Assembly: GCA_003008705.1 (NCBI GenBank)
Contig: PDUO01000006.1
Span: 1,001,295-1,065,294, forward strand
From: Pezicula radicicola
Lineage: Eukaryota; Ascomycota; Leotiomycetes; Helotiales; Dermateaceae
Length of the DNA: 64,000 bases
Reading direction: 5' to 3'
This document shows positions 1 to 31,122 of the stretch, one piece after another. Position 1 is the stretch's first letter; each line of letters opens with the position of its first letter. The notes under the pieces were generated by a model that saw only the letters and a list, made by a program, of their open reading frames with translations, did no database searches and had not been told where the DNA came from. The translations under genes were made by a program, and so were the position numbers.

Positions 1-3000
1 ATCGATGTATTGCTTGGGAGCTTGTATCAAACCTTGCATCTGATATGCAAGGTCCAAGTCTCGTAGGAAGATATGCCAGCTCACACCGTCCATCACGATA
101 TGGTGATAACCAAAAATGATGGTATTCTGGCTTGGACTTTGAGAAACTATCGTCACCCCAAATGTCTGACCTTTTTCAAGATCCCACAAGTGTTTTCTCA
201 AAATCTCAAACTCTTGCTCGATTCCAGTATCGTCTCCACATTGGACATGCTTGAGGAGATATGAAGGCTTTGCCAAGACGCCCTGCATGAGACTGCCGTT
301 TTCGGGGTCTTCAAAGAAAGAAGTCTGCAAAGATTGATGGTGAGAAATGGTTGCGGCTAGAGCTCGGTTCAGTCTTGATATTTGCAAGTTGCCCTTGACG
401 TCGTAGGAGACGGTTACATTGTATGTTGTTGGATCTTCGAGGTACTTTGACAGAAACCAGAGCCGGGACTGAGCATAAGACATCTTTCCTGAATTTTGAA
501 TGCTGTTTATGTTTCCAAAGTATAGGGAATTGCTCGGAGCCTCCTTTGATAGGTCGAAGGAAGATGTTAGAACACTTGGGGGTGTCTCGGTCCCGATAAG
601 CAAGGAGGGTGGTGTACTGAGCCCTCGGCTGTGCATCTTCTCGGAGCTGCCATCGCTGCTCATGTCACGTTCTGAGTCCGAGTTATCGAATGAGTCGAGC
701 TTTTCTCTATCCTGATTGACAGCCATGCCTGAAGCAAGTTGATTCGTCTCAATGGTCACTGGATCTTCAGCGGTCGAGGATGCGGTTGACATTTCTTTCC
801 TGGCTTCCTTGAGTTTCAAGGCAAGAAACTTCTTTGTAGCATCTTCGCAGATTTGAGCAACAGTGTCTCCAGAAAGGACTTTGAGAACTGGTACATCCAT
901 GCGGAGCTCTCTCAGGAACCATGTTCTGATCTCAACGGCTAGCAACGAATCGCAGCCGAGATCAATTAAGGGTATGTTGACATTAACACTATCTGGTGCC
1001 AGTTGCATTATAGCTTCCAATTTGGATGAGAAAGCACTCTGAACAATTTGGATTAAAGATTCCTCAGAATCAGCTTCCTCTATTCTCTGCTTGATATTGG
1101 TAGCAGTGGAGCCAGTCTGTGTATGCTCCTTCACCGACGCCTCTTTGATGACAAAATGAGAGAAACGCGGGTTTGACTCCCAAGGTGGGCGAGCCGTCGT
1201 ATCTGGAGAGTCTACGACCGATTGTAGTCCGATGATAATCTCCGAAGAGCGCTTGGAGTCAGGTCGTCCAGCTAGAACAGCCTCCGCGAAGAAGTGATGG
1301 ACATCAGACTCTGACAGAGGCATAAAGAATAATTTCCGCAGGTGCTCTTCCATAGCTCGGCCTTTACGTGCGACATAGCCCACATCAGTGACTAGTCCTA
1401 TATGGATGACAGACGCTGCTAATCCCTTCTTGCGACGCTGAGAGGCAAGGCTTGCCATAAATAAGTTGGCAGCGTGATAGTTTGACTGGCCTGCGTTACC
1501 GATGATGCTCGCAAGCGAGGAGAACAATATAAAAAAGTCAAGTGGCGTCTGACTGAAAATCTCATCCAGATATCGTGTCCCATCAACCTTGGGTCCGAGT
1601 GTATTATTCAATGTGTCAACGTCCATGTTGACAAAGAGCTTGTCAGAGAGGACCATCGCAGCATTGCAGACTCCACCGATTGGTGGCATCTTGTTTTTGA
1701 CGTCGTTCACAACAGAGTGAACCGAGCTTCTGTCGGAAACATCCATCTTAAAAAGCTGGATGTTAGCACCAAGTTTACCCATTTCCTTGAGCCACCTAGT
1801 ATCCACATCCGCGTTCCTGCTCGTGAGAACAATGTGACGTGCTCCATTCTTTATCATCCAGGAAGCAATAGACAGACCGAGCTCTCCGGTCATGCCAACT
1901 AAAAGATATGTGACTGCAGAAGAGAACATGTTGGCAGTATTCAGTGGTTGGACTGGTACTTCTACAGAGCTTACATCGCTCCAATCTATGAGGTTTCGGT
2001 GTGATGAAGCTGGAGTGGACTTTGCCGCAATATCCTGCACACGGAGAGTTTTAGGTTCATTCGACTCTGGGATTGTGACTATGGCATCTGAATAAGAGTT
2101 TTTGAGGAGACTATGAAGTCCTGAGGCGTTATCGACCGAGGGTTGAAGAGTTACACAGTCGCGCGGCAGGCAGAATCTGATGTTGTGTGGCAGCGATCCG
2201 GAGAAATCTATCACACAGCTCAGATCTTGAGGCAGAAGATGCTTGGTTCTCTGCTGAGAAGACCGTGAGTGGAGCTTGATCCAGTCATGAGGCACAGTTG
2301 ACGACTTTGAAGAAGCAAAGAAAACTCGCTGCTGGTCCCAATGGCGAGAAGAAATCGAGACAAAGTCGTCCTCCGGTTCATACATCAGAACTGATCCACT
2401 AGGAGGAAGGTGCGGTTCAAGACCTCTGGCGATCAAATGAACTGCAACTGCCTGAAGCACGGCTGGTGAGCAACTATAGGGAAGTCAGCAATTACTTGAT
2501 GAAGAATGTCCTAAGAAAATTGAGACATTTGGAGAGATATCCCACAAGAATCGGAACAATGGAAGTATCGAAATAAGGAAGGGACTTCTCCCCTAGAACC
2601 TACCCATATCCTTCCTCGAGCACCAAAGCTTGATCAGTGGAGACTTCGATAGTCGAGACATTGGAACACGAAAGTGCCAGTGCAGTTCGATTTGTACTTT
2701 CGAGGAGACCACTGCACAGATAGTAGTTTTTGCCATCTGCACTTGGGAGCATGATTGAGTATCGCACACTGATTCTAAGAAAACCAGACGGAGATTTCTG
2801 CCGAAGATCCAGGCTGTTTTGGACCAATTCGAGAGATTTGCCAGTAGAGACGATTTCAATGCAAGTCTGTTCGGTGAAAACTGTTTTGGTAATGAGCCGC
2901 CGAGCTGCATTATATCTATCGTTCATAGCCTTGTTAGGCAAGACTCGAGGGACTAGAAACGTTTCGCCGTCAAATAATAACTCCGGCTCGGTCTTCCAAA

Positions 3001-6000
3001 GTATATTATTGCCTGCGTATCCTGGTAAAGAACTCATCCTCAGTCTGAGAAAGACTTCCACCAATATTCTAGCACTTCTAGCTGGCATCCCAGTAACATC
3101 CATGTCCAGAAATTGCAAGTTCAGATGAGGGAGTTCTATCAATAGAGAGCGCCCAATGCCGACCGTCATATTCGAGCATGGACTGTCCGACATTCGACCA
3201 TTGGTAACCCAGAGCACATTTTGAGAACTAATAAAAAGATCTTGTAGTGATTGCAGCCTCGCCGGAGTGACGGTTTTGGAGAAAAGAGGCTGATCGAGCT
3301 CTTCGAGGCAGATAACAGAAGTCATGAACGGAAGGTTGGAGCTATCCAAACTTTCCATGCTTTTGTGAAAGGAGATATTTGTCCAAGAGGGAAGAAGTTT
3401 CCGCATTTCGCTGACCGTTTTGGCAACTGGCAGTGACACCCCGCCGATGATCAGAAGATGCTCATCCCCTGAGTTGCTAGTAGCAGATAGGGGCTCGCGA
3501 AGTAACTCGAACTTCTGGTTTATCGCCTGACTAACAATTAGAGAGAAGGAATGTATGCGCTCGTCTGCCATATCATGTATTATAGAGTCGACTCCGGAGA
3601 ACCCAGTATTCTGGAGAAGTTCATGCCACTGAGAAGCAGAAATCGCGGGCGAATGAACCCTGCCTTCTTGGCATCCCAGCCACCAGCCAGGCACTACCAA
3701 TATATTAGTACTTGATTATGTCAAAGAGCAAAGGCAGGAGGAGCAAAACATGCTCTGAGAAAATAGGGACATTTTTAGCGAGAGCAAGAACAAAGAAACG
3801 GGGTGCTTACATCCACCCATGATGAATCCCGTCCTCAAAATTTCGGGCCCAGTGATTTCCATCATTACTAAGAATCCTCCCGGTTTAAGGAGTAACCTAG
3901 CGTGCTGCATTGTTTCGGTCAAGTTTCGTGTCGCATGCAGGACATTGGCCGCGATGATGATGTCGTAAGAATGCTCTAAGTAGCCTTGCATGATGGGATC
4001 TTTCTCGATATCTAGCAGCTTAAACGCAATCTTGCCGCTATGGTCTCTGAACTTCTCCGCTGCACTCTCAAAGAATCCAGTAGAAATGTCGGTGTAGGTG
4101 TAAGATGAATAAGCGTCGGTGATTGTATCGAGTATACTCCTTGTTGTGCCACCAGTTCCTGCACCAATTTCCAGAATGTTTGCCTGTGGGTGCTTGAACG
4201 TAATTCGTTCAATTACAGTTGCTATCTCGTCATTCACAATGGAAAAACCATAACCTTCCATGTAGAAGCGATTCAGCATGTTATCCTCCAGCATTACCTC
4301 CAAGAGCTGAGTTTCTCCACGCACAACAGATGCGATGTTACTGCCAATGGCATGGATGAGCCGAAGATCAACTCGGCTCGAGTACGGCTCGCTCAATGCT
4401 GAAATAGTCTCCTGTGAGTCTTCTAGCCATTCCGGTTTTGCAATGGGGTGTTGTCCTTTGCGAATTGACTCGAGCAGGGTATTTGCAGCTTCAAACATTC
4501 GTTGGTGATGCCATTTAGAGCTTTGAATCTCCTCTGGCGTGAACTCCCGAAACAAAGCTTGATAGTAGTACAAAGATGTTCTATCGAGAACCTCCAATAA
4601 CTCAATGTCATCTGCAACTTCATTGATCCTATTCAGATCTGTCATTCCGTAGGAAACATCTGTCGCCCAAATAGTCTCAGCAAAGAGACGCTTATCATTC
4701 GAAGGTTCCGGCTCAGAGACTGCTTGCATAGCAATCCCTTCCACTTGCAAGCTCGTCTGCGTTCCTCTGGAATCATAAAGTTGAATATCACCTTCGAGAA
4801 TAGTAGAAGACGCAGTAGTGACAAAGGCGTCAGCATCTGCCTTGATTTCTCCAGAAATACTTTGATACTCCGGCCTTGGGTCTACAGTAAGACGATGAAT
4901 CTTTACGGGTAGATAGGGCGCCCAAATGTCTCCACTCGCCGGAGAGGAGAAGGCTGCATAGAGTGATTGAAAAGCCACATCTAAGAAGGCTGGATGCACA
5001 ACATACTCCTGACCCATGTCAACAGCCAGCCAAGATGCAGTCGTCGAGGCACATCCCAACGAGCGTTTGCAGTCAAGCATTCCACGGAACAGGCCTTGAT
5101 AGTTGAGTCCAACGTTGCCCATTGCAGCGTAGAATCTTTCCATATCCACAGGGACGAGATTTGTACTTTGCTCCTGTCTTGGGGGAAGCTCCTCTCCAGA
5201 GGGTTCGCCGAGATGGATAGAAAGTCGGCCAGTACAGGCTTTGACCAAAGAGCCGGATTGATCGGAGCAAAAATAGCATGTAAACTCTGCCTGCAGAGTG
5301 TGGCTATCAATTAGTGAACTCTCATCAACGATCCTGGCAGTAAAAACCGTTTCAACACGCTGAATTTCTGGAATGACCATAGCACGACTCAAAACCACGT
5401 TCTGCAATTCATAAAGCTTAACAGTGCGCCCATTAGCAATGGCCTTGGCTGCTTCCAAGGCCATTGCGACATAGCCAGCTCCTGGAAACAGTATCTGTCC
5501 TTGAAATTCGTGTCCTCGCATCCAAGGAATCTCTGCAAGTTGCAGAAAGTTCCTCCAGCGCAATTCGTGTTCGGTATCATCAGAAACTCTCCGGCCAAGC
5601 AGCTCTTGGCTATCGTCAGTGCTAAGACGGTATCTGCGTGATATTCGTGACTCTCTCCAGTGGGGTTTGACGTGATCCCAAGAATAGCTAGGCAAGTCCT
5701 TGAGCATTTGCGGTTCCAGAGGGCGAGCGTTAGGCTGTTGGAAGGCTCTGCGGTACGCATCAAAGTCAACGAAGGAGGGTCCAAGAAACGACCAGACATA
5801 GCCGACAGCGCCAGAGAAGGCCTCGATCTCATTATCATCACGTCTCATCACACCAGCATAGCTTGGTGCGGATCCGAAAACTGCTTTCAGAGTCTGCTCT
5901 GCTGGTCCTTTAAGCACTGGATGGGGTCCTAGCTCAATAGCAACATCAAATGGACCGCCATTCCAGATCGAGGCCTCAATCGCTTGTGAAAACAACACTG

Positions 6001-8503
6001 TGCTTAGTAAATTATCCACCCAATATTGCGCTGTCAAATCTTCGCAGCGTCCTTCTAGTAGATCGGGATCCGGATCTCCACGTACGCTAGAAATCCAGAT
6101 ACAGTCGCTTCTCGGTGGGCTAATTTTGATGTCGCAAGCTTTTAAAGAGGCTAGATAAGGACCAGAACAGGGAATCATATGGTGGGAGTGATAGGCAGTG
6201 TCGATCCTTAGCAGCCTTACGAATGTCTTCTCGTTCTCAAAGTGCTCTTTCGCCTCCTTTATCGCGTCCTGATCTCCAGAGAGAGTAACACTCAGGGGAG
6301 AATTGCTTGCTGCAACTACTATACGACGATAAAACTCGGGTCTTGCACAAAATGAAAGCGCACTCTCATAAGATATTCCAACAGCTATCATTGCCCCCAA
6401 TTGCCCCTGAGGACCTCTAGCGAGCCTTGCATAGTATCCTCGGTAGTACGCAATTTGCATTGCAGCTGTAGCCGTAATGATTCCAGCTGCATAGACAGCG
6501 GCAATCTCTCCAGACGAATGGCCCACAACCGCATCCAACTTAACACCTGTTGCTCTCAGAAGATCAACCAGAGCGATTTGCAAAGCAGTGCAAAGGGGTT
6601 GAGATAAAGCGGCCTCAGATAGACGAGAGCTCTCTTTATCAGCAATAAGTTCAGCCTTCAAAGACCAGCTGGGTCCATCTGGCAGACGCGCTAAGACTTC
6701 TTCACACCGTTCAATAGATTCGCGAAATAGGGGCGACGAAAGAATGAGACCCCGGCCCATTGAAGCCCAATGTGCACCTTGCCCGGTAAAAACTCCAAGT
6801 ATTCCAGGCACTTCACTTGGGTTTATCAGCTGCGCTCGAGTGCCAGCTGCGGCTATTGAACCAGCTTCGCTATCTGTGACAAACTTGTCCATGAAGTTTA
6901 GCAGACGCTGTCGAGTTGAGCCGGAAAAGAAAGTCTTGACAGGAAAGGTAGTTCTCCTTGCTTGTAAAACCCATGTTAGATCTTCCAAGTTCAGGGAAGG
7001 TTTTGACTTGATGTACTCTGCAAATTTCTTCACGGATCCAACGAGTGATGATCCTGAATATGCCGAGAATATCAAAGGGCCAAGAAAGCCTTCTTCTGAC
7101 GAATTATGTGCACATTCGTCTTCAATTGAACCAGGACATATGTCCAGATCCTCTCGATTGTGGTATTTGGCTTGAGGGAGGTAGCTTTCTAGGATGGCGT
7201 GAGCATTGGTGCCACCAAATCCAAATGAATTAACACTTGCTCGCAAAGGCACACCAGGTGGCGAGTTCCAAGCCAATGCTTTTGTCGGAATTTGGAGATG
7301 CTCGTAGAATGAAGATATGGCTGGATTGAGCTCTCTAAAATGCATATTCGGTGGAATGGTTTGATTCTTGATTGCTAGTAAAGCCCTGAGAACCCCCGCT
7401 ATCCCAGCACAACCCTCGAGATGGCCGATAACAGTTTTGATCGAGCCAACGAAAAGTTTTTCAGATACCTGCGTCGAAAGCTCATCTGTCTTAGTACCAA
7501 CGGGGAAAAATGCGTCTCTGATCGCCTCAGCTTCGACGGGATCACCTGCAAGAGTTCCTGTCCCATGGCATTCGAAATATTGACAGCGGTCGGCGATAGG
7601 ATCCAGACCAGCATTGCGGTACGTTTGCTGAATAAGGGTAGTCTGCGCTGCAGCACTGGGCATAGTAATGCCCTTCGTCCTTCCATCTGAGTTGACGCCA
7701 GTCCCGCGGATGATTCCTTCGACATGGTCCCCGTCCTTAATAGCTTGGCTCAAGGGCTTTAGGAAAAGCGCACCAAATCCTTCCCCACGAGCATAGCCAT
7801 TCGCAGACTTGTCCCACATACGAGACCTTGAATCAGGTGAAAGCATATGTAATTTTGACTCAGCAATATACATAGCAGGATCAAGAATCAAGTTAGCGCC
7901 TGCAACAATAGCAGAAACCGCATCGCCATTTCTTAGACTTTGAACGGCTTGATGCAATGCAACAAGCGAGCTCGAACACGCTGTATCTATTGTCATAGAT
8001 GGGCCTGTAAGGTCAAAGAAATAAGAAATTCTATTAGAAAGGATAGAACGAGCAGTGCCAGTTGCATGGTTAGTAGCTAGCGCCTCAGAGTCCCGTAATT
8101 GGATATCAGTATAGTCCGAATTCATAATGCCAACATAAACGGATGTTCTCGAGCCCTGGATCTGTTTGAGTGTACAACCAGCAGCTTCTAGTGCTTCGTA
8201 GACTATTTCAAGTAGCATTCGTTGCTGGGGATCCATGCCGTCGGCTTCTAGTGGGTTAATATTAAAGAAGGGCGCATCGAAAAGTCGATAGTCTTCCGAG
8301 AGAAGATATCCCTTGCTATTGACATCTGTACTGCCATGGTGCTCTCCATTCGGGTGATAAAATCTGGAAAGATTCAGTCTATCTGTTGAGAAATCACTGA
8401 GCACGTCTCTGGGCTCTCGGAGTAGTTCCCATAGCTTGGACGGTGAGGTGGATGAGCCTGGAAAACGACAAGCTGTTCCAATGATGGCAATTGGCTCTGG
8501 CAT
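1..8503 (-). CDS. Highly reducing PKS with C-terminal condensation domain (PKS-NRPS hybrid or LovB-type), 3' end outside window
   Basis: Iterative type I PKS, about 2,750 residues visible. Exons: 8503-3811, 3693-2604, 2473-<1. The first splice rebuilds the methyltransferase motif GGLPGWWLG; the second is in frame (phase 2). Domains: KS 3-440 (DTACSSS, Cys176; His313, His361); AT from about 565 (GHSSGE, Ser663); DH (His998 in HEFQGQILFPG; Asp1175 in HPAFLD); C-methyltransferase (GAGTGG, 1447-1452). A pseudo-KR region follows with no ER NAD(P)H motif. KR is at about 1.3-2.0 kb (GMTGELG; SNYHAAN). The ACP serine codon (LGCDSLLAVE) is at 946-948. A condensation domain starts near 480 (MSYAQSRLWFL), with HHIVMDG at 85-105. 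The reading frame is still open at base 1, so A-T-R modules may lie beyond. The missing ER matches the trans-ER gene at 14105. The start is the first Met before the KS (MPEPIAIIGTACRFPG). Confidence 0.95.
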
Positions 8504-9106: not shown

Positions 9107-10750
9107 ATGAACCTCCTTTGGCAATGGGCATCCTATGCCCTCTCTTCTGCCATCATTCTTTTCGTTTTGAAGGAAGGATATGAGCTTTTTAATTATAACC
9201 TCAAAAGGAAGAAGTTGGGATGTGGTGTCATTCCACGGTATTCCCACTCGAACTCTTTCTTTGGCCTCGATATTGCCTTGGGCATGGCGAAGTCCTTGAA
9301 ACAAGACTATTTTCTTGTTTGGCTCAATAAGATCCACAAGAATAAGCCCAAAACATTTCTAGTTAACTTCGTCGGCAGTCGATTTATCTACACCATTGAA
9401 CCCGAGAATATGAAGTCCATGTCTGCCATAAACTGGAAGGATTTTGCAGTTGGACCTATGAGACGCAACAACAACGCCACACATCCTTTTGCAGACAAAG
9501 GCGTTAACACGGTCGATGGAGAGGAATGGAAATTCAGCCGAGAACTCATCAAACCATTTTTCATGCGTGAAGCTTTTACCAATACTGGACGACTCTCGAG
9601 GCATGTTGACAGACTTTTCGAAAAATTTCCAGCGGACGGCGAAACTTTCAACATACAACCTCTCATCCAACGTTGGGTAAGTCACTTCCTCTTGATAAGT
9701 TGAAAATGAGTAAAGTCTTATCTCCAGAATAGTTTCTAGATACCACAACTGAGGTTCTCTTTGGGGAATCCATTGAGTCTTTGGTTTATCCAGAGAGGGC
9801 TGACATCTGCTGGTCTATGGTTGATATCCTCCGCGGTCTGCGCTTACGCTTGCAATGGTACAAATATCTCTTCCTCTTCAAGCATCAGAGTTGGCTGGAC
9901 GCAGTTCAAGTAGTGCACAACTACCTCAACAAACATATTGACAGCACTTTCAAAGATTTGGAGGAGATGGAGGCAATGGAGGCGTTAGAAAAAGCCAAGA
10001 TTCCGGAGGAGATGACAGAGAACACTAAGCGAACAGACTTACTTTGGTCCATGGCATCTCGACTAAGGGACAAGGTAGCTCTCCGGTCTCAGATCTGCCT
10101 CATATTTGTTCCCAATAACGACACTACATCGATATTTATTAGTCATATCCTCTGGAATCTTGCGCGGCATCCAAATGTTTACGCCAAGTGCCATGCAGAA
10201 ATAGAAGCTCTGGGTGATTCCGAGTTGACTTTCGAAACCCTTAGAGGGTTGAAATATCTCAAAGCCGTTATGGACGAGAGTAAGTAGTTTCACACAGTAA
10301 ATCATATATGAACAAGAACTGACGTCAACAGCCCACCGTCTTTACCCGAACGGAGTCACACAGGTCCGCAAATGCATCAATGATACAACTCTGCCTGTCG
10401 GTGGTGGTCCGGATGGGAAGGATCCCATTCTAGTCCGCAAAGGCGATGTAGTCCAAGTCAACAAAAATGTCCTTCATCGCGACACGGACATTTGGGGACC
10501 CGATGCTGAAGAATTTCGACCTGAGCGCTGGGAAGGAGTAAGGCCCTTTTGGACATTTGTGCCATTTGGGGGTGGACCTCGACGTTGCCCTGCGCAAATG
10601 TTAGTTACAACGGAAGCAAGTTATGTACTTGCAAGATTGATGCAACGGTACAAGAGGATTGAAGCAAGAGATCCAAATCCATATGTTGGCGTGATGAGAG
10701 TTGGGCCGTCGAATAAGTATGGTGTCAAAATTGCACTTTACAAAGAATGA
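9107..10750 (+). CDS. Cytochrome P450 monooxygenase (CYP52-like, membrane anchored)
   Basis: Heme-thiolate monooxygenase, 511 aa, probably tailoring the polyketide product at the ER membrane. Exons: 9107-9676, 9733-10279, 10332-10750, with phases 0 and 1. The first splice gives [14 protein letters not shown]; the second restores the ExxR helix (DETHRLYP). An N-terminal membrane segment covers about residues 7-22. The I-helix motif is VPNNDTTS, keeping Asp-Thr but with Pro-Asn-Asn instead of the usual Ala-Gly-x. PERF-type FRPERW and the heme loop [11 protein letters not shown] are intact. The architecture resembles fungal alkane or fatty-acid hydroxylase P450s. It is divergent to the PKS and 600 bp away, so co-regulation is likely. 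The substrate cannot be inferred. Family confidence is high, subfamily moderate. Confidence 0.93.
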
Positions 10751-11217: not shown

Positions 11218-13300
11218 TCAAATAGGAGTAAAAATAATCTTAGAAGAAGCTACCTCTTCCACGCCCTTCTCCTCCTCCACACTAGTGATCAAGTATTTCA
11301 CTACAACCTCCAATATTGTCATCTTAAACACAATATCAGCCACATTTTTCCCAAGACATTTTCCAGATGCAGCACCGACACCAAACCGCATAAAGCCATA
11401 TCGACAAGTGCTCTGTGGCATATCCCTAAAACGTTCTGGTCGAAAAGTATTTCCATCAGGGCCCCAAGTGACGGAATCAGTATTGAGACGTCTTGCATCA
11501 ATGATAACAGCCGTATTAGGGGGAACATTATAACCACCAATATTCTTGCTCATTGCAGTACATTCAGGTAAAGAGAACCCTTGCATATATACTTTTATCA
11601 GTAAAGTTTTTCTCAATGCGTGTGATATGGAGGAGAAGGGACCCAACTTACAGAAGGCAGGTGTTAGTCGCATACTTTCCATAATCAAGAAATTGAGAAA
11701 GGAATCTTGCTTTAAGATATATTTCACCAAGTCATAGTTTTCTTGGGCCTTCTGTTCGTGGATTTCAGCTCGAAGAGCATGTTGGAATTCCTTATTTGTA
11801 GCCAGTTGGGTGAAAAGAGTATTTAGGACAGCGGAACTAATATCAACATTTGCAAAGAGTATTTCATCGACTGTGTGTAAGAACTGTTATAAAACATATT
11901 AGTAGCTTTCGGTGGTAAAGAATGTCTATTCCAAAGGGGCTTATAATATCTATACCTCGGTCTTTGTCATGTCATGTGCTTGATCAACACCTCTGTAAAT
12001 ACGCTCTGCTGGACAGCAGACCTCATTCTGGCGTTATGAGTTAGTACTTTTCAGAATTACGGACGTTGTTTTTGTTTTGAATTGAGCCCCACCTCTCTCG
12101 CATATTGAATTATATCCAAATTCATGAACTCCCACTGCTTCACGTACAGATCCATACGTTTCTTCGCAGCTGTAGGAAATAAATTCCATATTTTGGAAAC
12201 CAATCGCTTGTTGAGAATAACATCATGAAGGATTATTTCATGAAGTACATTTATTTCAAGCAACTTTGAGTAAACCTTTTCCGAAAGTCAGCTAGCTGAT
12301 GCAGTAGGTTTGATATCCACTGAAAGGGGGCTAGGTAGATACCTCGTCACTAAAAACATCCCCATATAGTTGAAGTGCAACCAACTGGAAGGGCAGATAT
12401 CTGCAAGTCTTTTTCACGTCAAGTATAAAGCTACCGTTTGTGGAAGGCACTTTCGTCGCAGCCTCTGTAGGTAATGTGTCGACCCACTCGCTGATCTTAG
12501 CTGAGAATTTGGGGATTGCTTTTATACTTATGGCAGGAGTAAATTCAGGGTCAAAATACTTCCGAATTACCCTCCATCTCTCACCAGCTTTTACACCAAC
12601 AGCATCCCCAAGAATCCTAGAATCAAAAAGAAATGAGTCCCGTAGTTTCGGGAGTAGAGAAAGCCACTTACCTCCCAAAATATTCACCCATGTTTAAGTT
12701 CCGTGGCTTTGGGTGACCTGCTTTATACTTCAGTCATTCATAGTCATGATAAAATAAACACTTTGAAAGTCCTAACCTCTAGTATCATTTCTATAAAAGT
12801 CCCTCAGGTGATCTGGCTGTGTGATGACCAGTTCTCGAGAATTACCATTGTGAATAATGTATGGATCATCATCCGCCAATTCTTTCCCTTTAGCAGAGAG
12901 TTCCAAACTAAAAAAGAAGGATTGCTCTTAGCACAAACAGAAGGGGGGGGGATCATGATAAGAGGAGTATGTATACCTTGCGGCAAATTTCGCCAGTCGA
13001 GAGTCTGATTTAAGTTCTTTTATTCTGCTTCCTTTGTTATTTTTGATGCTTCCGCTCTTGATTAGAACTCAAAATCAGCCTAGCTCAGCCCAGTTCAGAC
13101 CATCTTAGAGGGTAAGGAGGAACAAAGAGCTTTCTCAGTTTGATTTAAGTGCAAGAACTCACATCTGTAAATAAAGCAGAACAAGTCAAGAACAGGGAGA
13201 TAATAATCACAAGACCGGTTGCTGCAGATAGTGCAACTGGATATGTGGGATATACTGTAATAACAGCTAGATGCTCCATCACTAGCTGAGTTCTATTCAT
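11218..13300 (-). CDS. Second cytochrome P450 monooxygenase, nine exons
   Basis: Heme monooxygenase of 455 aa. Exons by splice signals and frame: 13300-13163, 13056-12977, 12907-12777, 12717-12672, 12616-12343, 12263-12093, 12027-11956, 11883-11652, 11579-11218. All phases agree and the total is 456 codons. Met at 13279 is an alternative start. An N-terminal membrane anchor lies in exon 1. The ExxR motif is ESMR in MESMRLTPAF; the heme loop is FGVGAASGKCLG; the I-helix region is LFANVDISS. The C-terminal half resembles P450s of fungal peptide/alkaloid clusters (GliC/GliF type), from memory only. It is divergent from the trans-ER gene. It first looked broken because eight introns interrupt it, but it reads as intact. 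Confidence 0.87.
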
Positions 13301-14104: not shown

Positions 14105-15292
14105 ATGACTCTAATACCGGAAACACAAAGAGCCCTCAAGATCCAATGTCCAGGAAAAGTTCATCTCGTAGCAAGAAGCGCAGTCCCATATCTCGAAGCA
14201 GATGAAGTTCTCGTCCGCGTAATCTGTGTTGCGATAAATCCCGTAGATGGGAAGTCCGCAGACCTTTCACCCACGATAGGAGCAACATCAGGATGTGATT
14301 TTTCAGGAGAGGTAGTAGCGCTAGGCAGCAGGAGCACTGGATCAAAATCGATGGAAATTGGTGACCGAGTTTGTGGTTGCATCTTCGGGAACAATCCGGA
14401 TAGGTTGGATAATGGAGCCTTTTCTGATTATGTCGCCGTCCCAGTTAATCTGGTCATCAAAATTCCTCCTCGGTTATCTTACCAAGAAGCTGCGACGTTG
14501 GGTGTTGGGTTATCTACTGTTGGTATGGCACTATATCATGCTTTGAAATTGCCGGCGCCATTATCACCGTCAGTACAGGATCCACGTTATGCTTTGGTTT
14601 ATGGAGGAGGAACTGCCACTGGAGCACTTGCAATCCAGATGCTTCGACTGTAAGTAAAAATGTTCATATCTAAAAAAAAATCCCCCAGCAATGGAGCAAG
14701 TGTACAGTGTACCTAAGAAAATTCAACTTCACTCATGAATTTATTGACTTAACAACCCACAAGGTCAGGTCTAAGTCCGATCACGACCTGCTCTCCCCAC
14801 AATTTCAATCTAGCAAAATCGCTCGGAGCAGTAGAAACTTTCGACTACCATTCAGCAACATGCGGAGAGGAGATCCGAGAATTCACGAAAAATACTCTGT
14901 ACTACGCTCTAGACTGTATCAGCGATACCAGATCAATGAAGATCTGTTACGCAGCAATTGGTAGTCAAGGAGGGAAATATCTCAGCCTCGACCCCTTTCC
15001 TATCAGATGTCATACACGTCGAAGCATTAAGCCAAACTGGATCATTTCCCTCACCATGTTCAACAAGCCTATCAATTGGAAGAGACCCTACAAACGAGAC
15101 GCCAAGCCAAAAGACAGGGAGTTTGCCGAAGGTTGGTTCGAAATCGCACAGAAACTTCTTGACGATGACAAGATCCAACCATTTCCGTATCAGGAAAAGC
15201 CTGGTGGGTTGGAGGGTATCATCCGAGGTATGGATTCTGTTCAGAAGGGGGAGGTATCTGGCGTCAAATTAGTTTATCAAATCCGGGAGTAA
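14105..15292 (+). CDS. Trans-acting enoyl reductase (zinc-free MDR family, LovC/ApdC type)
   Basis: NADPH-dependent medium-chain dehydrogenase/reductase, 357 aa, predicted to reduce enoyl intermediates on the PKS in trans. Exons 14105-14649 and 14764-15292 (phase 2 splice, LRL/SGLSPITT). The N-terminal GroES-like fold shows VAINPVDGK and GCDFSGEVV. The cofactor part shows LGVGLSTVGMALY and VYGGGTATGALAIQ. The C-terminal half shows FDYHS and LDCISD. No structural-zinc cysteines are visible. This is the size and motif set of stand-alone ERs that accompany fungal PKS-NRPS and LovB enzymes lacking a working ER, which is the situation at 1-8503. A generic quinone oxidoreductase is the alternative, but context favours the trans-ER. 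Confidence 0.92.
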
Positions 15293-16042: not shown

Positions 16043-17837
16043 ATGCCTCACGCTGACTCTACCGTTGAGGAACTTCCATCTGACAGCGTCCTCATAGTTG
16101 GTGGAGGCCCAGTTGGGTTGATTTTGGCTGTGACGCTTGCCCATCATGGCGTTAAAAGCGTTCTGGTGGAGCGAAATCTCACTACAACTCGTTGGCCGAA
16201 GATGGACTTGACGATTGCCCGATCCATGGAAATCTTTCGAGTTCTCGGTATAGCAGATAGTATGCGCGAAAGAGGAGTGCCATCGCATTACCCATTCACT
16301 TGCTTATTCTCCAGTGGTCTCAATTCGGAGAAGGCAATCACTTCGTGGGAACTCCCTAGTGTTGACGAGTTTAGATCTCATATCAATTCTTGTAACGATG
16401 GAACCATGCCGCTAGAACCGTGGCAACGGATCTCACAAGAGGTTTTTGAGGCCTGGCTGAAAGAGCTCGGTGACCAAAATCCTTTAATCAACATTCGCTT
16501 TGGCTGGACAGCTGTAGGTGCTAAAGAGCTCCATGGGGGTGCTGAAGTGGTTGTTGTAGATACTATCACGGGCGCTGAGAAGATCATTCGGGCAAAATAC
16601 GCAGTGGGATGTGACGGCGCAAATAGTGTGCTTCGAAAAAGCCTAGGTATCGAGTTGGAAGGTGGACCAATGTACGTACCAAATCCGCTAGACTCCGTAC
16701 TTTCATATCTGATGTGATGACGACAGCCCCGCGTATGCGCTTCTTGTTCACTTCAAGTCGAAGGATCTCAGCCGTATCCATAAGCAAGGTCAATTCTGGC
16801 ACATCTTCTTTCCTAATGCGGCCGCTGAGGGCGGTTCAGTGAAGGGAGCTATTATTGCTCAAGATGAAGTCGATACCTGGACTGTCCATCGATTCCTACC
16901 AGCCGGATTTAACGACAGCCAAATATCTTCTGAGGATGCGGTTTACAGTGTTTTAGGCGGAATGGGAGAACCGTACCCAATCAAAATTGATGAGATACTG
17001 GTTCGTTCTACCTGGACACCCAATGTTGCCGTGGCCAAAAGGTATTCAGGTCCGGAACAAAGGATTCTGCTCGCGGGAGATGCCTGTCATCAAACTGTTC
17101 CCACAGGAGGGTATGGTATGAATATGGGCATTGCGGAAGCCTTTGACCTAGGCTGGAAGCTGGCAGCGGTAATCAACAACTGGGGAGGACCACAACTCTT
17201 AGCATCGTATGAGGAAGAACGACGCCCAGTAGCCTTGCTCAGCTTGCAGTGGTCCAAAGGGCATATGGGGAAAATCATGGCTCTGTCTGCCATACTTGGT
17301 TTGGAGGCTGATGTGATCAATGCCGCTGATGAGAAGGGGCAGAAAATGAGATCTGCATTACATCAGTACGCGCAGACAAACGACGGGCATAACAAGAGCA
17401 TTGGGGTTGAGATGGGATACCGTTACGATTCCAGAATATGCGTTCCGGGAGAAATTGATCACGAGTCAAGCCCTCCTGAGTTCGACTCGCGGAGATACAC
17501 GCCTACAACATACCCTGGACACCGGGCACCGCATGTCTTCTTGAACGACGGAACGCCGATATTCGACAAGTATTCCAAGGAATTTACCTTGATCGATTTT
17601 AATAATGATGGGCAGAACAGTGCGGCCACGACGTACATTTGCAATGCCTCCAAAAGGCACAATATTCCTCTTGAAGTTGTCGTATTAGCTGGAGAAAATC
17701 ACGCAAATGCAATATGGGGAGCAAAGCTTGTGCTGATCCGACCCGATGGCTTCGTCTCGTGGCACGGAAGTACCATTCAAGACCAGAATGCAGCTGACTG
17801 GATTCTCTCCAAGGCGACAGGCTACGGAGGTACCTAG
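16043..17837 (+). CDS. FAD-dependent aromatic-type monooxygenase (FAD_binding_3 / phenol hydroxylase-like)
   Basis: Flavoprotein monooxygenase, 579 aa. Exons 16043-16671 and 16727-17837 (phase 2 splice giving GGP/IPAYALLVHF). The Rossmann motif is LIVGGGPVGL (about residues 17-26), the DG motif is VGCDGANSVLRKSLG, and the FAD-ribityl motif is ILLAGDACHQTVPTGGYGMN. The C-terminal 150 residues are the thioredoxin-like tail typical of phenol-hydroxylase-type enzymes of this length. It is probably a tailoring hydroxylase or epoxidase for an aromatic or pyridone-like intermediate. It sits between the trans-ER and the transporter. Confidence 0.93.
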
Positions 17838-18547: not shown

Positions 18548-19893
18548 TCATCCCTCATCATCAGTACTACACCATTGATCTTTTCCAACCATCATTTCAA
18601 CTTCCTCCTCATCACATACCTCATTCCTTAATCCATGTCTATGTCTATACCTATCTCGTACAGCCTCGTCTTCCCTCCGCCCCTTGATCATCGCTACCGT
18701 AACAACAGCCCCAAGAATCAACACCCCCCCAACCACACTCACCCAGTTAGGACGCTGACCCCACACCAGCTCATCCATAATCAACGCAAACACGACCTGC
18801 GTGTATACCATATTCAATGCCTTGGTACTACCTCCACTCTGCAAGCTTGTCGCTATCAACAATTGTAATAATAAACCAAACCCCCCCAGAAACATCAGTA
18901 GTCCCCATTCTGATGCACTAGGCATTCTCAACGCTTCCGCTCCCGTGACTGCAAAGCCCAGACTGGTAATAAGCACCGTCCAGGTCGCAAAATGGTTCAC
19001 TGTCACAGCTGGGTGCGCATCCTTACTGATCAAATCCATGACCACGTAGGCTGCGGCTGCTCCTGCTACCCCCACGAGGGCGGCTCCAACTGCAGCAATG
19101 CGTTCTAGAGACGTAACTGGAACAGAGGGAGAGTTTTCTGGGATATGAGAAGTCCCATGGCAATCCTTGCAGAAAATGAAGCTGCCATTATTGATGACTT
19201 TAGGCATAAGAGGGGGGATTTCGGGTGGGGTTTTAGCAAACATGTGCCAGGGTTGAGAGACAAGAATAACGCCGAGGATTGATATTGCGCTTGCTATTTG
19301 CTGTGTTAGGGTGAATGACACTCTACTGATAAGGCTTGAAGCAAATGCGGCGACCATAGGCGCGAGGAAATTGATGACTGTTGCCTCGGAGAGTGGAAGG
19401 TAGCGGAGAGAATAGTAGAAGCCCCAGACTGACAAAGTCAATTAGCCATTTTCAACTATAGGTTTCGAGTGCTCAGGCATACTACCAAAGACTCCAGTGA
19501 TGCCTCGAAGCGTCAACAGCGGCCATATATTCTTGGTGCCAAATGGCGCTTCTGGCACTCTGGCCAAGAACATCCAAAGCCAACTCAAGGCCATTGTTAC
19601 ACTCATCATAGTTACGAGAATCTTGCCAGTGTCAGCTCACTTGATCCGATTTCAAGCCAATCCCCTCGTGCACATACCTGGCTTGTATCCAATGCTCCAT
19701 AATCTTGATTAGATGTTTGTAAAAGCTTTGCAGCTACGGCTATTAACGATGAGACCAGCTGGGCCAGGAGCATGAGCATGATGCTACTGTTTCTCAGCCA
19801 AAATTCCGTTAATTTCCTCCTGGCTTCTGTTATTGTGCTTTCTGAAGACATAGTCGCGCCCGCATACTTTTCGAGTAGCATCCCTTCTACCAT
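18548..19893 (-). CDS. DMT-superfamily transporter (EamA, SLC35G-like)
   Basis: Polytopic membrane protein, 410 aa, with about ten transmembrane segments in two EamA repeats. Exons 19893-19678, 19621-19486, 19428-18548. Splices give DTSQ/ILVTMMSVTMALSW and GVF/VWGFYYSLRYLP. The first repeat includes the typical LSEATVINFLAPMVAA. The second includes LQSGGSTKALNMVYTQVVFALIMDELVWG. The C-terminus is hydrophilic and Arg-rich. Fungal members are plasma-membrane or Golgi permeases; inside a metabolite cluster, product or precursor export is plausible. Met at 19893 is used; Met 19851 (MSSESTIT) is possible. Confidence 0.88.
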
Positions 19894-21136: not shown

Positions 21137-22519
21137 ATGAGCATCACAAATCTCGTCGAACTTGCTTGGAGCATCAATGTCGCCGCCGAAAATGGAACCG
21201 AAAATGTCTCTGAGGAGGACCGCAAGCAGCTGCTTCAAGCCTGCTCCAAATTGCAGAGCTCGTTTGAATCGCCCTTTGAATTCACACTTAGAGTGATCTT
21301 CTCTGTACTTAAAACTCCTGCGGATTGTTATATGCGGTGAAGAGCGGATACTGATGTTAGTGTAGGGTCATCAAGCTATGGCACTTAGATTAGGAGTCGA
21401 CCTAAAGTTGTTCGATGCAGCAGCCAGGAAAAACGGGGATGAAATCACCATTCAGGAGCTTTCTGAAGTAACCAAAGCTGATCCATTGCTCATCAGTAAG
21501 TGTCATGTGCTGGTTTTTCGATTGAGGAGGGAATGAAGTTAACCATCAACAGAGAGAGTTATGAGATTCCTAGGAGCCATGGGTATTTTCAAAGAAGTGA
21601 CCAAGGGCTCATATGCCTCGACGCCTCTCGCCGCATCTTATGTCTCAAGTTCTCCATTTTCAGCAGTCGTTATTCATGTGTATGTTGTTCCCATTTCAGA
21701 CAATATGTTATTTTGCGACCAACCCTCATAACTAGGACCCATTTTATCATGATTATTTCCAAGCTCCCCGAATACTTTGAGAAGAACGGTTGGAAAAACC
21801 CAGATAATGTATACGATGGCCCATTCCAATACGCCATGGGCACTGATAAGCACTATTTTGACTTCCTCGCGTCCAAACCATACTATCAGCAAGCTTTCAA
21901 CACCGTCATGACCATCTCACACCGCCGTCGCGGGCAGAACTGGTTCAACTTCTTCCCGGTGGAAGAGAAGCTTCGCGTTCAAAACCCTACCGATGTAGTA
22001 TTGGTAGACGTTGGTGGCAGCCAAGGAGGAGATCTTATTGCCTTCAAAGAGAAACACCCTGATATCCCTGGAAAGCTTATCTTGCAGGATTTACCAATCG
22101 TTATCGCTGAGGCAAAGAATATTCCCGCAGGAATTGAAGCTCAGGGATATGACTTTTTCAACGAGCAGCCGGTCAAGGGTGCAAAAGCTTATTACTTACG
22201 AACAGTACTTCACGACTGGCCAGACAAACAAGCGCTTCAGATTTTGACCAGAGTTCGCGAGGCAATGGCCCCAGACTCGATCTTATTGATCAACGAAACC
22301 ATGTTACCAGAGTCGAACGTGGCCTTGTCCTCGGCCCAGGCCGATCTCACCATGATGGTTTCGTTTGCATCATTAGAGCGTACAAAGGAGCAGTTTGAGA
22401 CATTGTTAAACGAATCCGGCTTTGAGTTGGTCAAGGTGTGGATGCCCAAGGGTTTCGAGGAGAGTTCGGCAGAGTTGGCCGAGCAGGCGACATTGTTGGA
22501 AGCGAGGCTCAAACAGTAG
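21137..22519 (+). CDS. SAM-dependent O-methyltransferase (plant-type/fungal OMT)
   Basis: Class I O-methyltransferase, 402 aa. Exons 21137-21304, 21366-21495, 21553-21679, 21736-22519, all phases consistent. The N-terminal winged-helix dimerisation part includes HQAMALRLGVDLKLFDAA and RVMRFLGAMGIFKEV. The SAM motif is VLVDVGGSQGGD. The catalytic-base region is VLHDWPDKQALQIL (His). The motif INETMLPE follows. It resembles OMTs of sterigmatocystin-type and pyridone pathways. It probably methylates a hydroxyl made by one of the cluster oxygenases. It is convergent with the regulator gene, whose predicted stop is only 60 bp beyond. Confidence 0.94.
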
Positions 22520-22579
22520 CACATTGGCAAGCTCCAAATCAAAACAAACTGGTATATAGATCGAGGCGGGAGCTTGGCC

Positions 22580-24873
22580 TTAGAGCTATCGATAAATGTT
22601 AGAACAAAGGCTTCGCGAAACGAGCAGCAAGTAATTACCATAAAATCCCATGACACTCCATCATTTCCACTCTGGAACAAAGCATCCCCCTGACCTGTGG
22701 AGGGCCTGTTAAAGTGTTGACCATTTTCTCCTGTCTGAGCCTCCAGAATCTGGCAACAAAGGGCCAGGCTGGACTTTGCCGCCTCCACTATGGAAGTCTC
22801 TGGCAATTTTCCCGTTTTAATAGCATCGGCCTGTGCTAGAGTACATTTGCATAGCACGTAAGCTTCTATGCTTGTATCCCCCGCTTGGATACGGCGGTCT
22901 AGAATCTCGGTGGATTGTTGTATGACTTTGTAGAACCTCTCGCGAGAGAAGCTATGCATCATAGGAAACGAATCTTCCGTCAAATCATTGATCAACTCGA
23001 CGCAGATCGTGGCAGTCGCATGCCATAGCATATGCTTGAACATGCCACAACCAAGCACCTTAAGACGAGAGTAATTCTGCGAGGGTTCTCGATGGGGTTG
23101 TGTCAAGTGCGGGCTGGACAAAAACGCAAGAGAAATTTCAGTGACAACTTTTCGGCTGAAATAGAATGATGAGTCGGACTTTGCTTTGGCCGCATATGGG
23201 ACATGTAGCGCCAATAGAAAGCGGCGTGTCAAGATGTCAAGAAGCTGCATCTGGAACTCAGTTGGCTTTGCGCTGTCGGTGGAGGGCAAGGACAGATATG
23301 ACTGAATGAGAGCTGTATGTGAACGGACAGCAGCATCTATTTCGGAGCCCAGTTGTAGAGTTTTCTGGTAATTTTGATTGGAGTTTAAGGCATTGAGCAA
23401 TCGGATAATCTTGAGTCTAATGGGCACAGTCCTCAGCAGCATGATCTGGATCGTGCTCTGCGTAAATGTGTCCAGGGATTCGTCGGGGGCACAGCCGTCC
23501 AAATGATCTGCAATTTGCACATCATTGGAATTCGATGGAGGCTGCCAATCGAAGTCGTCGGTGGATATTGGCGCCGGCATCCCATAGTCGAGACTTAGTT
23601 GGACAGAAAGCTCTAGTATTGTGGCCCACAATCTCTTTCTCATTTCTAACTCAAAAGCTGGGATTTCTGGAGTATCTTCCCGGGGCTCTCTATGAAGCCC
23701 TAAGATAATTGCTATCCGGAGCGGAAAGTTGGCAGATATCCAGATCAATTCCGATGCAACTACGTCGGTTTGGCGAGCCAAAAGGAGTAGACAGGAAACC
23801 TGGAGTACATCGATGTCAATCTCTGATATTTCAAACATATGAACTAGCCACTGCTGAACGTCGTGAACCCATTTGGATGCCAGGGAACGTAATGAGCGCG
23901 CCTGGTCCTCAGATTCCCCGTAAAAGCATGCCCCAATAGCCAAGACAAGAAGAAACTTCCGCGAAAATACATCGCTTGAACCTAGGGGGTTATTCCAATA
24001 TGCCTGATATTCATGTTGAAATGATGGAACATGCAGAATTCGGAAGACCGTCTCGAACGTGTGAAAATACAGATAAATGAGCCGGTCACAAACTGCCTTA
24101 GGGGGGATTTTGTTGGTGAAATGTGGTCCAGAGGAGCCATAGATCAAGTCACTTGAACGTTTGGCTTTGATTGCTTTTGAAAGTTGCTTGCACTTCGTGA
24201 GGAGGGGTAAGATTTCGGAATACTCGACTGAGGTGTGTGATGCAACGTCGTAGAACAGAAACTTCATTTTGTCAAGCTATGTAGTAGTACGATTAGCTGT
24301 TCCTGCGATAATCCTTTGTTAGAGTCGGTTTTAGCTTACTGCTGTTTGAATATAGTGTTGGCTAGGTCCAAAACTTGAAATTCGTGAAAAGCTGGGTCTG
24401 ATGGATCCTGAAGATGCTAATAGGTTGCTGTTGGTTGAAGTCTCAGAAGGAGGTGAGGTAAACATGGATAACTGATCAGTCCCGTTGCTTGTTGGGCTGC
24501 GTAATATGTGTGGTACCAGATTCGAAACCCCTACCTCCCTGACCTGCGGAGCGTCTAAACGAGCGAAGCCACCTGAAGGACACCAGCTTGACATTTGCTC
24601 CCCCGAAATGTAACTTGTATTCAGATCCCCAAAATGGTCGGCGGCAGGAATGAACCCAGGTGCAAAAGGACTTTCGACTGGGTAATTCAGAATGGGTTGG
24701 TACGTATTCTGATTATGTTGCGAATTTACTGATGACGGGGGACGGTACTCGCACACCAAATTTGACGTTCGGCATGGCCTGCATGGCAAATTGCGGTCGC
24801 ACTTCACCTTTCTTCGTCGGCATTCAGTACAGGCTACTGCGGGCCTGCGACGTTTATATACAGGACTTTCCAT
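22580..24873 (-). CDS. Zn2Cys6 transcription factor with fungal-specific TF domain, likely cluster regulator
   Basis: Predicted 725 aa. Exons 24873-24340, 24276-22639 and a 6-nt last exon 22585-22580. The binuclear zinc cluster is ACTECRRRKVKCDRNLPCRPC, residues about 14-34. The middle is the Fungal_trans domain (IYLYFHTFETVFRILHVPSF near the start). Splice 1 gives QTA/LDKMKFLFYD. Exon 2 would stay open to 22237 and overlap the convergent O-methyltransferase by 283 bp. A GTAATT donor, a CTAAC branch and a TAG acceptor predict a short end reading SWDFML-stop, a common C-terminus type in this family. Adjacent position suggests a pathway-specific activator. The 3' end is inferred. Confidence 0.85.
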
Positions 24874-26213: not shown

Positions 26214-26944
26214 ATGGCTTCTCTAGCTTTAAGTCGCTGTCTGTCTTCTTTTCCCTGCTTTGCTTTAAACGCGCACGTGGGTGTATTCGCTGACCATTTA
26301 TTTAGCCTTCGCCCGGACAGGGTCAGCCTCGAGCATCATCCATGCCTCAAGACTCATTTCGAGGCCAAATGCTCTTGCAGCATTAACCATTGGAGCAAGG
26401 GATACCGTGATTCGGAGAAGACAGGTCCGGTATGTGTATGGGATCCCATCAGCAAGAGCGTCGAGTAACATAGGACAGCCATACCACTTCGACCACAAAT
26501 TCCAATCCCAAGACCTATACTATTAGCCCATCTGACAGTGTCAAAATTCTCGCTGCCCAGCGCCGCAATCGACCCACCGCTCCGCACTTGGCTATCTACA
26601 AGTGGCAGCTGACATCGGTCAATTCTAGTCTGGAGCGAATCACTGGCGTCGCCCTCGCCGGTAGTCTATACATCTTTGGTATTGCATATGTTGCATCTCC
26701 ATACCTAGGATGGGATTTGTCATCAAACGCCATGGCTGCTGCTATGGCAGGTTTGCCATGGGCTGGCAAGGTCGCGGTGAAGTTTGGTCTTTCGTGGCCG
26801 TTTTTCTTCCACGGGTTCAATAGCTTGAGGCATTTGGCTTGGGATATGACCAAGGGTTTCAAAATGGCGACAGTATATCGGACCGGTTATGCATCAGCGG
26901 GTTTGTCGATCCTAGCTGCGGCAGGCTTTGCGATCTGGTTTTGA
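26214..26944 (+). CDS. sdhC: Succinate dehydrogenase cytochrome b subunit (SDHC), divergent copy within the cluster
   Basis: Membrane-anchor subunit of respiratory complex II in the mitochondrial inner membrane, binding heme b and ubiquinone. Predicted 202 aa. Exons 26214-26232, 26306-26429, 26479-26944; the first, very short exon is least certain. A basic N-terminal presequence (RLISRPNALAALTIGARD) is followed by the signature HLAIYKWQ, SSLERITGVALAG and three membrane helices. Both conserved histidines are present in HGFNSLRHLAWD (about 159 and 166). By comparison with fungal SDHC numbering, the pocket Trp equals Ser94, the Asn before the invariant Arg equals Glu100, and NG of HxxNGxRH is NS. 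Biosynthetic genes lie on both sides. It may be a self-resistance paralogue; the housekeeping copy cannot be excluded. Confidence 0.9.
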
Positions 26945-30079: not shown

Positions 30080-31122
30080 ATGGCACCTACTCTTGAGAAG
30101 TATCGCTTGCTCAATGAAGATGAATCCGATACCATCAATAGCGGTTCCAGCAGTGAGGAACTTACGGGTCATGAATACCTCTCACGAAAAGAAGTTTCCA
30201 TGTCTAAGCTCTCGAAATTGTCCATTATTGTCACTGCCGTCGTCTTCATCTTCTCTATCATCTCCAACATCGTCATGGCTCTTACTTTGAGAAAGGTTTG
30301 GGTACCCGCCCAGCGAATTACTAAACTTGGTGAGTATTTTTTGTTTTTTTGCTTATGCAGACCTCGGCTTTTACAATACTAATTCGGAATGCGTAGCTGG
30401 ATTGGCAGACAATCACCCGGCTGCATGGCAATCGGCAACTCCATATAACCAAGAGAACATCTCTGAGAGTGACCATGCCTGGGTCAATATGGAGATCGAC
30501 TATATCAACGTTGCTCTTACCAAGGAGTACGCCAAAGAAAAAGGTCTCCCTCCTTCGGCGGATTTCCCGTGGGATCCTACTCACAGCGTCTACATGATTA
30601 CTTCAATGCACAGCTTGCACTGCTTGGTAAACTTCCCATCTAAAAACGATATGGAAGATCACCTACTAATATCACGGATAGAAATCTCTCCACAGATCAA
30701 ATCTAGAGTATAGAAAAGGTGTCAAGCAGAGCTACCAGACGGAGCATCTAATCCACTGTCTGGATAACGTTCGACAAGATATCATGTGCGCAGCCGATGA
30801 TACACCACGCTATATTCCCGTCGATGCCACAGGTAGCGCCATCACAGCTGTAGGCCAATATCGCCAATGTAAAGATTGGAATAAGCTGGAGAAGTGGAGC
30901 AAGGAGCATGGGGCGTGCTTCAGTTACAATGAGTTGATTCGCCATGAGTTGTTGGAAGACCAGCCGTATCCACATGCTCTGCGTTTCTGCCCTAAGGGTA
31001 GCAAGTTCTTGCCTGCGGTGCAGAAGTTTTATAATATGCCTGAGGACTGGGTACCGACGAAACCAGATCCTCCTTATCCTGATGTGGGAATCAAGTTTGA
31101 TGGATATGGGGTGTATACGTGA
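30080..31122 (+). CDS. UstYa-family oxidase (DUF3328)
   Basis: Predicted 306 aa. Exons 30080-30329, 30397-30626, 30682-31122, all in phase. A cytosolic N-terminus is followed by one signal-anchor helix (about residues 44-70). The two diagnostic metal-binding HxxHC motifs are HSLHC, just before the second intron, and HLIHC, about 23 residues later in exon 3 (HLIHCLDNVRQDIMC). UstYa proteins are copper-type oxidases or cyclases of RiPP and other fungal pathways, usually membrane bound. Here it starts about 1.1 kb from FAD monooxygenase 2. No repeat-type RiPP precursor with aromatic cores is seen nearby, so it more likely acts on the PKS-derived product or in a separate small locus. Confidence 0.9.

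Follow-up and report, generated by a model that had tools for sequence, protein, structure and literature searches.

Inside a PKS-NRPS cluster of Pezicula radicicola lies a gene for SDHC, the cytochrome b subunit of succinate dehydrogenase. We hold it reasonably likely that this gene protects the producer from a complex II inhibitor that comes from the same cluster and that is probably a 2-pyridone, and that it is thus a self-resistance gene. The window, by which we mean the whole stretch of 64,000 nucleotides that was analysed, is C98:1001295-1065294 of a genome of 61.0 Mb in 152 contigs. When the cluster is active, the alternative SDHC would be imported into mitochondria and would replace the housekeeping SDHC in complex II. 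The altered pocket, with Ser for Trp and Glu for Asn, would still reduce quinone and would bind the inhibitor poorly, and the alternative SDHC would keep the producer's respiration going. Table 1 of PMC10320164 already names succinate dehydrogenase in this role for the atpenin B and harzianopyridone clusters, and the cluster SDHC of P. radicicola adds a candidate. If this reading is true, the cluster is a testable new source of an inhibitor of complex II, at which a major class of fungicides is aimed. Nature would then use two sites that are known from SDHI resistance in field and laboratory, and self-protection would be the reason for at least one fungal SDHC paralogue.

The cluster and its SDHC gene

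The sequence-only reading that preceded this analysis had left the type of the synthase as "PKS(-NRPS)", and once the sequence left of the window is added, it is a full PKS-NRPS. The gene continues 3.9 kb past the left edge of the window to C98:997371 with the rest of C, A, T and a reductase-like domain. It is intact, with three introns and 4,006 aa, and Pfam gives no match to an ER domain over this whole length. Tailoring, transport and regulatory genes fill 9.1-31.1 kb of the window. The features are the following.

1..8503, minus strand: N-terminal part of the PKS-NRPS (KS-AT-DH-MT-KR-ACP and the start of C); window exons 8503-3811, 3693-2604 and 2473-1, from Pfam and the extended sequence
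9107..10750, plus strand: multi-exon cytochrome P450; Pfam p450 on exon 10301-10747, frame 9095-9703 without Pfam match
11218..13279 (start at 13279 or 13300), minus strand: second multi-exon cytochrome P450; Pfam p450 on 11218-11886, upstream exons from open frames only
14105..15292, plus strand: trans-acting enoyl reductase, LovC-like; Pfam ADH_N, with ADH_zinc_N below the cut-off; first exon against LovC in the PDB with E 1.4e-27
16043..17837, plus strand: FAD monooxygenase with aromatic-ring hydroxylase C-terminal domain; Pfam FAD_binding_3 and Rng_hyd_C; FAD monooxygenases in the PDB, RebC the best
18548..19881, minus strand: EamA-family transporter, possibly an exporter; Pfam EamA on 18548-19441
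21137..22519, plus strand: O-methyltransferase-type enzyme; Pfam Methyltransf_2; nearest solved structures LepI and MpaG'
22237..24873, minus strand: Zn2Cys6 regulator; Pfam Zn_clus and Fungal_trans; 3' end unsure, the frame entering the O-methyltransferase gene antisense
26214..26944, plus strand: cluster SDHC (succinate dehydrogenase cytochrome b subunit); Pfam Sdh_cyt with 92.9 bits, cut-off 25.8
26597..26638, plus strand: quinone-pocket segment YKWQLTSVNSSLER at the start of helix I of the cluster SDHC, from sequence alignment; resistance-site positions as given in PMC5094580
27500..28962, minus strand: second FAD monooxygenase; Pfam FAD_binding_3; last exon from sequence, without Pfam match
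30080..31122, plus strand: UstYa-type protein with two HxxHC motifs (30609 and 30745); Pfam UstYa on two exons

According to PMC8669486, 2-pyridone clusters pair a PKS-NRPS whose own ER is dead with a separate ER and two P450s, and harzianopyridone is named among the separate-ER clusters. The sequence-only reading had pointed to PKS-NRPS plus trans-ER pathways as the source of atpenin and harzianopyridone; both enzymes are present here, and together with the two P450s they match this description. The reading had further placed the SDHC gene among cluster genes, and Pfam recognises all of the neighbours that it named, the Zn2Cys6/Fungal_trans regulator, the O-methyltransferase, the FAD monooxygenase and the UstYa-type protein. 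With cluster borders judged from gene content only, the SDHC gene sits between the regulator and O-methyltransferase on one side and the second FAD monooxygenase and UstYa-type protein on the other, not at the cluster edge. Across seven intergenic regions, no Zn2Cys6 half-site pair or word common to the SDHC promoter and other cluster promoters was found beyond chance. The intergenic region common to regulator and SDHC carries a GTACA pentamer repeat of 6.6 copies at 25666-25700, with a similar run near 25905. Left of the window, a glycosyltransferase family 28 gene (L005 4256-5720) adjoins the 3' end of the PKS-NRPS. To the right of the cluster, positions 31836-33740 hold a 634-residue Ser/Pro/Ala/Lys-rich frame without Pfam match that contains an 84-bp tandem repeat (3.1 copies), and a copper amine oxidase gene lies at 55717-57384 in the right half of the window.

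The preferred model of the cluster SDHC joins exons 26214-26280, 26327-26429 and 26479-26944 to an intact protein of 211 aa, with introns GTGTAT..GGTCAG and GTATGT..GGACAG. The first of these introns is uncertain, because four alternative choices are also in frame. By eye, the N-terminus resembles a mitochondrial presequence. A PDB search gives SDHC chains of complex II as the best relatives of solved structure. The AlphaFold model of the last exon has a mean pLDDT of 88.4 and three long helices. Below E 0.001, Foldseek matches this model to 14 chains, all from complex II entries, among them yeast complex II with bixafen. Sequence and predicted fold are compatible with assembly into complex II. 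An environmental relative (P0003) is 86% identical to the cluster SDHC over 140 residues.

The housekeeping SDHC and the quinone pocket

A search of the same genome with PF01127 gave five candidates, and scoring all of them left two SDHC loci, the one in the window and one at C87:1373431-1373799. SDHD (PF05328) and SDHB (PF13085) are present at one locus each. The C87 copy reads QVTWYLSGLNRITG and HCINGLRH, which is the canonical form, so that the second, canonical SDHC that had been suggested as a check is present on another contig. The two large frames beside it encode a GH1 glycosidase and an alpha/beta hydrolase by Pfam, and no PKS or NRPS frame is found among the 13 listed in 9.9 kb around it, two of which were Pfam-tested. 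Among the best 120 of 508 matches, its closest relatives are from Coleophoma cylindrospora (77%) and Phlyctema vagabunda (75%), both Helotiales, Dermateaceae. The first intron of the housekeeping gene is apparently of the GC-AG type (donor GCAAGT, L001 1240-1312).

The cluster SDHC and the C87 SDHC are identical at 78 of 182 aligned residues (42.9%). Two introns are common to both copies in the same phases (1 and 2), the second at the matching Arg codon. From this identity and from the two introns kept in the same phases, we conclude that the cluster SDHC is a genomic duplicate and is old. The same two introns rule out an origin as a retrocopy.

The motifs Y-K-W-Q-L-T-S-V-N-S-S-L-E-R and H-G-F-N-S-L-R-H, first noticed from the sequence alone, are confirmed in the cluster SDHC. 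Numbered as in Zymoseptoria, the cluster SDHC has Ser at W80, Ser at A84 and Glu at N86. Alignment with chicken SDHC keeps the quinone-site Ser and Arg and has Ser in place of the fungal Trp. We take the kept Ser and Arg of this segment to be quinone-binding residues. The earlier statement that the heme His, quinone-site Ser and Arg are retained agrees with the sequence, which has two His and the Ser/Arg pair. All 37 hand-picked aligned rows have the quinone-site Ser and Arg and the first His. The cluster SDHC thus appears, as judged from its residues, to be altered at the inhibitor site with the catalytic residues kept.

W80 and N86 had been named as SDHI-resistance sites, and both are listed as such in PMC5094580 and PMC5680630. 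The changes given in the former include W80S, A84V and N86K/S. According to PMC5680630, W80S and N86S confer low insensitivity to synthetic SDHIs, and N86K confers high resistance. How common the altered residues are was counted in 148 sequences, made up of 147 database matches (those of the second search being the best 120 of 508) and the housekeeping SDHC of the same genome. At the Trp site, 123 of them have W, 20 have S, 4 have A and 1 has M. The Asn site is occupied by N (105 sequences), H (21), E (10), Q (5) or another residue (7). For the Gly of HxxNGxRH the counts are 137 G, 9 S, 1 N and 1 R, and Ser at the A84 site is ordinary (50/148).

An old paralogous clade

The SDHC tree was calculated from 67 hand-picked rows, which are 26 of the 27 matches of the first search, 39 of the 120 listed in the second and the two own copies. 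A phylogeny of both copies had been proposed by the sequence-only reading, and it places them far apart. The cluster SDHC shares a clade of 8 rows (100/99) with proteins of Hymenoscyphus albidus, Microsporum canis and Nannizzia gypsea and with four environmental proteins. Around it stands a clade of 17 rows (99/94), to which Coccidioides, Uncinocarpus, Thermoascus, Aspergillus sclerotiicarbonarius and Coleophoma also contribute. The larger clade spans at least two fungal classes, since Hymenoscyphus and Coleophoma are Leotiomycetes and Microsporum is a Eurotiomycete. For M. canis, Coccidioides and Coleophoma, the tree also holds an ordinary SDHC outside the clade (P0094, P0136 and P0028). A recent duplication of the housekeeping SDHC within the Leotiomycetes is rejected with a log-likelihood lower by 86.9 and p-AU 3e-68, in a test on 30 rows without P0005 and the Leotiomycete-like P0072 and P0084. 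The tree puts M. canis and N. gypsea next to the group of the window. An arrangement that joins this group to Hymenoscyphus only is also compatible with the data (p-AU 0.358), and we therefore claim no transfer between dermatophytes and Helotiales.

In all 17 rows of the clade, the Trp is replaced by Ser or Ala and the Asn by Glu, Gln or Met. Outside it, on the Leotiomycete side, 7 of 25 housekeeping-type rows have a residue other than Trp (Ala, Ser or Met), and none of the 25 has Glu or Gln at the Asn site. On the SDHC tree, non-Trp at the W80 site needs five changes. The view that the altered residues reflect self-resistance within this cluster is kept in so far as they lie at resistance sites, and is weakened in so far as the changes did not arise in this cluster and are common to an old paralogous clade. 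Housekeeping-branch SDHCs with Ala at the W80 site come from Phialocephala subalpina, Acephala macrosclerotiorum and a Mollisiaceae strain, and a Rhexocercosporidium strain has Met (P0082, P0093, P0050 and P0071). Ser is found at this site in the housekeeping-branch rows P0031, P0054 and P0078.

A link of an SDHC of this clade to a cluster is seen only in the present window. In A. sclerotiicarbonarius the paralogue lies on a contig of 490,815 bases and the related PKS-NRPS on another of 606,467 bases. Hymenoscyphus carries a close paralogue (HYALB_00005772), and no match of this name is found among the best 120 of 1,023 PKS-NRPS matches. None of the PKS-NRPS matches listed is linked by a neighbouring locus tag to HYALB_00005772 or to McanMca71_006718, the M. 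canis match (48%) being without a tag. With an unlinked paralogue in A. sclerotiicarbonarius and no PKS-NRPS named Hymenoscyphus among the matches listed, the paralogue may therefore serve other ends, elsewhere or here.

As an alternative, the second SDHC would belong to the many alternative SDHCs that fungi carry and would be kept against inhibitors of competitors or for metabolic adjustment, with a position in the cluster that is incidental or loosely useful. In PMC6941823, the role of SDHC paralogues in fungi is called unknown, and outside natural SDHIs or metabolic adaptation are proposed for it. The breadth of the 17-row clade and the unlinked gene of A. sclerotiicarbonarius point the same way. 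However, the SDHC gene of the window has pathway genes on both sides, the genome has one locus each for SDHB and SDHD, and two known complex II inhibitor clusters are listed with a succinate dehydrogenase resistance gene in the table of PMC10320164. We regard this alternative as rather unlikely. 

A wider form of the self-resistance reading would have the whole alternative clade arise as, and still travel as, a self-resistance gene of complex II inhibitor clusters, and the clade would then mark undiscovered inhibitor clusters. We put this forward tentatively and lean against it. On the same doubtful reading, an inhibitor-insensitive complex II would have been ready in fungi long before synthetic SDHIs.

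Four members of the clade deviate in the conserved motif. P0012, P0015, P0016 and P0019, from Coccidioides, Uncinocarpus, Thermoascus and A. sclerotiicarbonarius, have K-Y, K-C, K-Y or R-Y for R-H, and Ser for the Asp of HxxNGxRHLxWD. Because R-H and Asp are replaced, these proteins may not bind heme or quinone normally.

The predicted cluster product and comparison with known systems

In a database search with the PKS-NRPS, scoring was confined to the 1,876 candidates with the most words in common; of the 1,023 matches, the best 120 are listed. Among the matches listed, three proteins are 83%, 75% and 74% identical to the window enzyme, followed in our comparison by A. sclerotiicarbonarius with 62%, the closest named bearer of a related PKS-NRPS, and by P0173 of Trichoderma harzianum with 56%. 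P0173 is not known to be the harzianopyridone enzyme. A FastTree tree of the 120 listed matches and the window groups the PKS-NRPS with five Trichoderma proteins in a clade of 25 rows (0.998).

The nine adenylation-site letters were taken from our own alignment at the GrsA positions. They read DMIIAMCAA and are identical in the T. harzianum PKS-NRPS and in IccA, the ilicicolin synthetase of Talaromyces variabilis (P0222). IccA uses tyrosine. It is a PKS-NRPS of the same length class and 49.5% identical to the window enzyme. Ilicicolin H acts on complex III, not II. DMIIAMCAA is found in 21 of 94 codable enzymes, window included, and because it is so common, it does not single out a product. 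The reductase-like domain was considered as proof of tetramate release and was discarded: the window has GFTASKW where IccA has GYTATKW, and this position therefore decides nothing.

PKS-NRPS plus trans-ER clusters make many compounds with other targets. The cluster could accordingly make a 2-pyridone or tetramate for another target, and the SDHC would be a passenger trapped between cluster genes by rearrangement. That products of such enzymes often aim elsewhere, that the adenylation letters recur in 21 of 94 enzymes and that no common promoter motif was found in the seven intergenic regions are all consistent with this. Against it, the supposed passenger is a variant of an inhibitor target that is changed in the inhibitor pocket, and it has stayed intact, with the 86% identity to P0003 over 140 residues. 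We consider a chance passenger quite improbable.

P450, FAD monooxygenase and methyltransferase enzymes are used in the harzianopyridone and atpenin pathways. For the clusters of harzianopyridone (T. harzianum) and atpenin B (Penicillium oxalicum), Table 1 of PMC10320164, citing Bat-Erdene 2020, gives succinate dehydrogenase, subunit unspecified, as the resistance gene, and "BGC proximity" is the hit type for the harzianopyridone cluster. A succinate dehydrogenase gene in or near the cluster is thus a common trait of these two systems and the window. By its description in PMC8669486, the harzianopyridone cluster also shares the PKS-NRPS and separate ER. Both producers belong to another fungal order than the fungus of the window. 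PMC12625553 gives two HxxHC motifs for ApnU, the copper halogenase of the atpenin cluster, and the UstYa-type protein of the window carries the same number. By its own account, the HxxHC-motif workflow of PMC12871659 does not separate such copper halogenases from hydroxylases. A PDB search with one UstYa exon gave no match.

A working precedent for an exchanged subunit is found in Zymoseptoria tritici. According to PMC6941823, its alternative SDHC (ZtSDHC3) assembles into working complex II and confers SDHI resistance via one pocket residue. ZtSDHC3 takes the place of the housekeeping subunit, to which it is paralogous, and shifts the response to inhibitors through the quinone pocket, and we propose the same for the cluster SDHC. 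In contrast to ZtSDHC3, which is regarded in that paper as a species-specific duplicate, the cluster SDHC is an old paralogue inside a biosynthetic cluster. Resistance by ZtSDHC3 is due to Ile at the A84 site, whereas the cluster SDHC has Ser there and its changes at the W80 and N86 sites. Target-copy self-resistance genes listed in Table 1 of PMC10320164 are the IMP dehydrogenase of mycophenolic acid and the proteasome subunit of fellutamide B. As in those two cases, a second copy of an essential enzyme lies in the cluster and the ordinary one elsewhere; here product and resistance role are predicted. In the open-licence literature, with subscription journals mostly outside, no SDHC in a Helotiales PKS-NRPS cluster and no tie of the alternative-SDHC clade to a cluster was found, which is a weak negative.

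Because of the precedents of ZtSDHC3 and of the atpenin B and harzianopyridone clusters listed with succinate dehydrogenase (PMC6941823 and PMC10320164), the cluster is likely to be the source of a complex II inhibitor of the 2-pyridone type. More closely, we infer a 2-pyridone derived from a tetramate and akin to harzianopyridone and atpenin. The original idea of an inhibitor with self-protection of its producer gains from the second canonical SDHC, the distance of the two copies in the tree, the 2-pyridone layout and the succinate dehydrogenase entries in the table of PMC10320164. It loses from residues common to an old clade, from non-Trp in 7 of 25 housekeeping rows and from the lack of a shared promoter motif in the regions compared. 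Very improbable is a cluster SDHC that no longer works in complex II and has a structural role like yeast Sdh3 in the TIM22 translocase. The yeast SDHC chain in a TIM22 complex structure (6lo8_C) and the name SHH3 of an SDHC-like protein of Candida viswanathii (P0027) speak for such a role, but the cluster SDHC keeps quinone-site Ser and Arg, HxxN and RH, where some other clade members have K-Y, K-C or R-Y.
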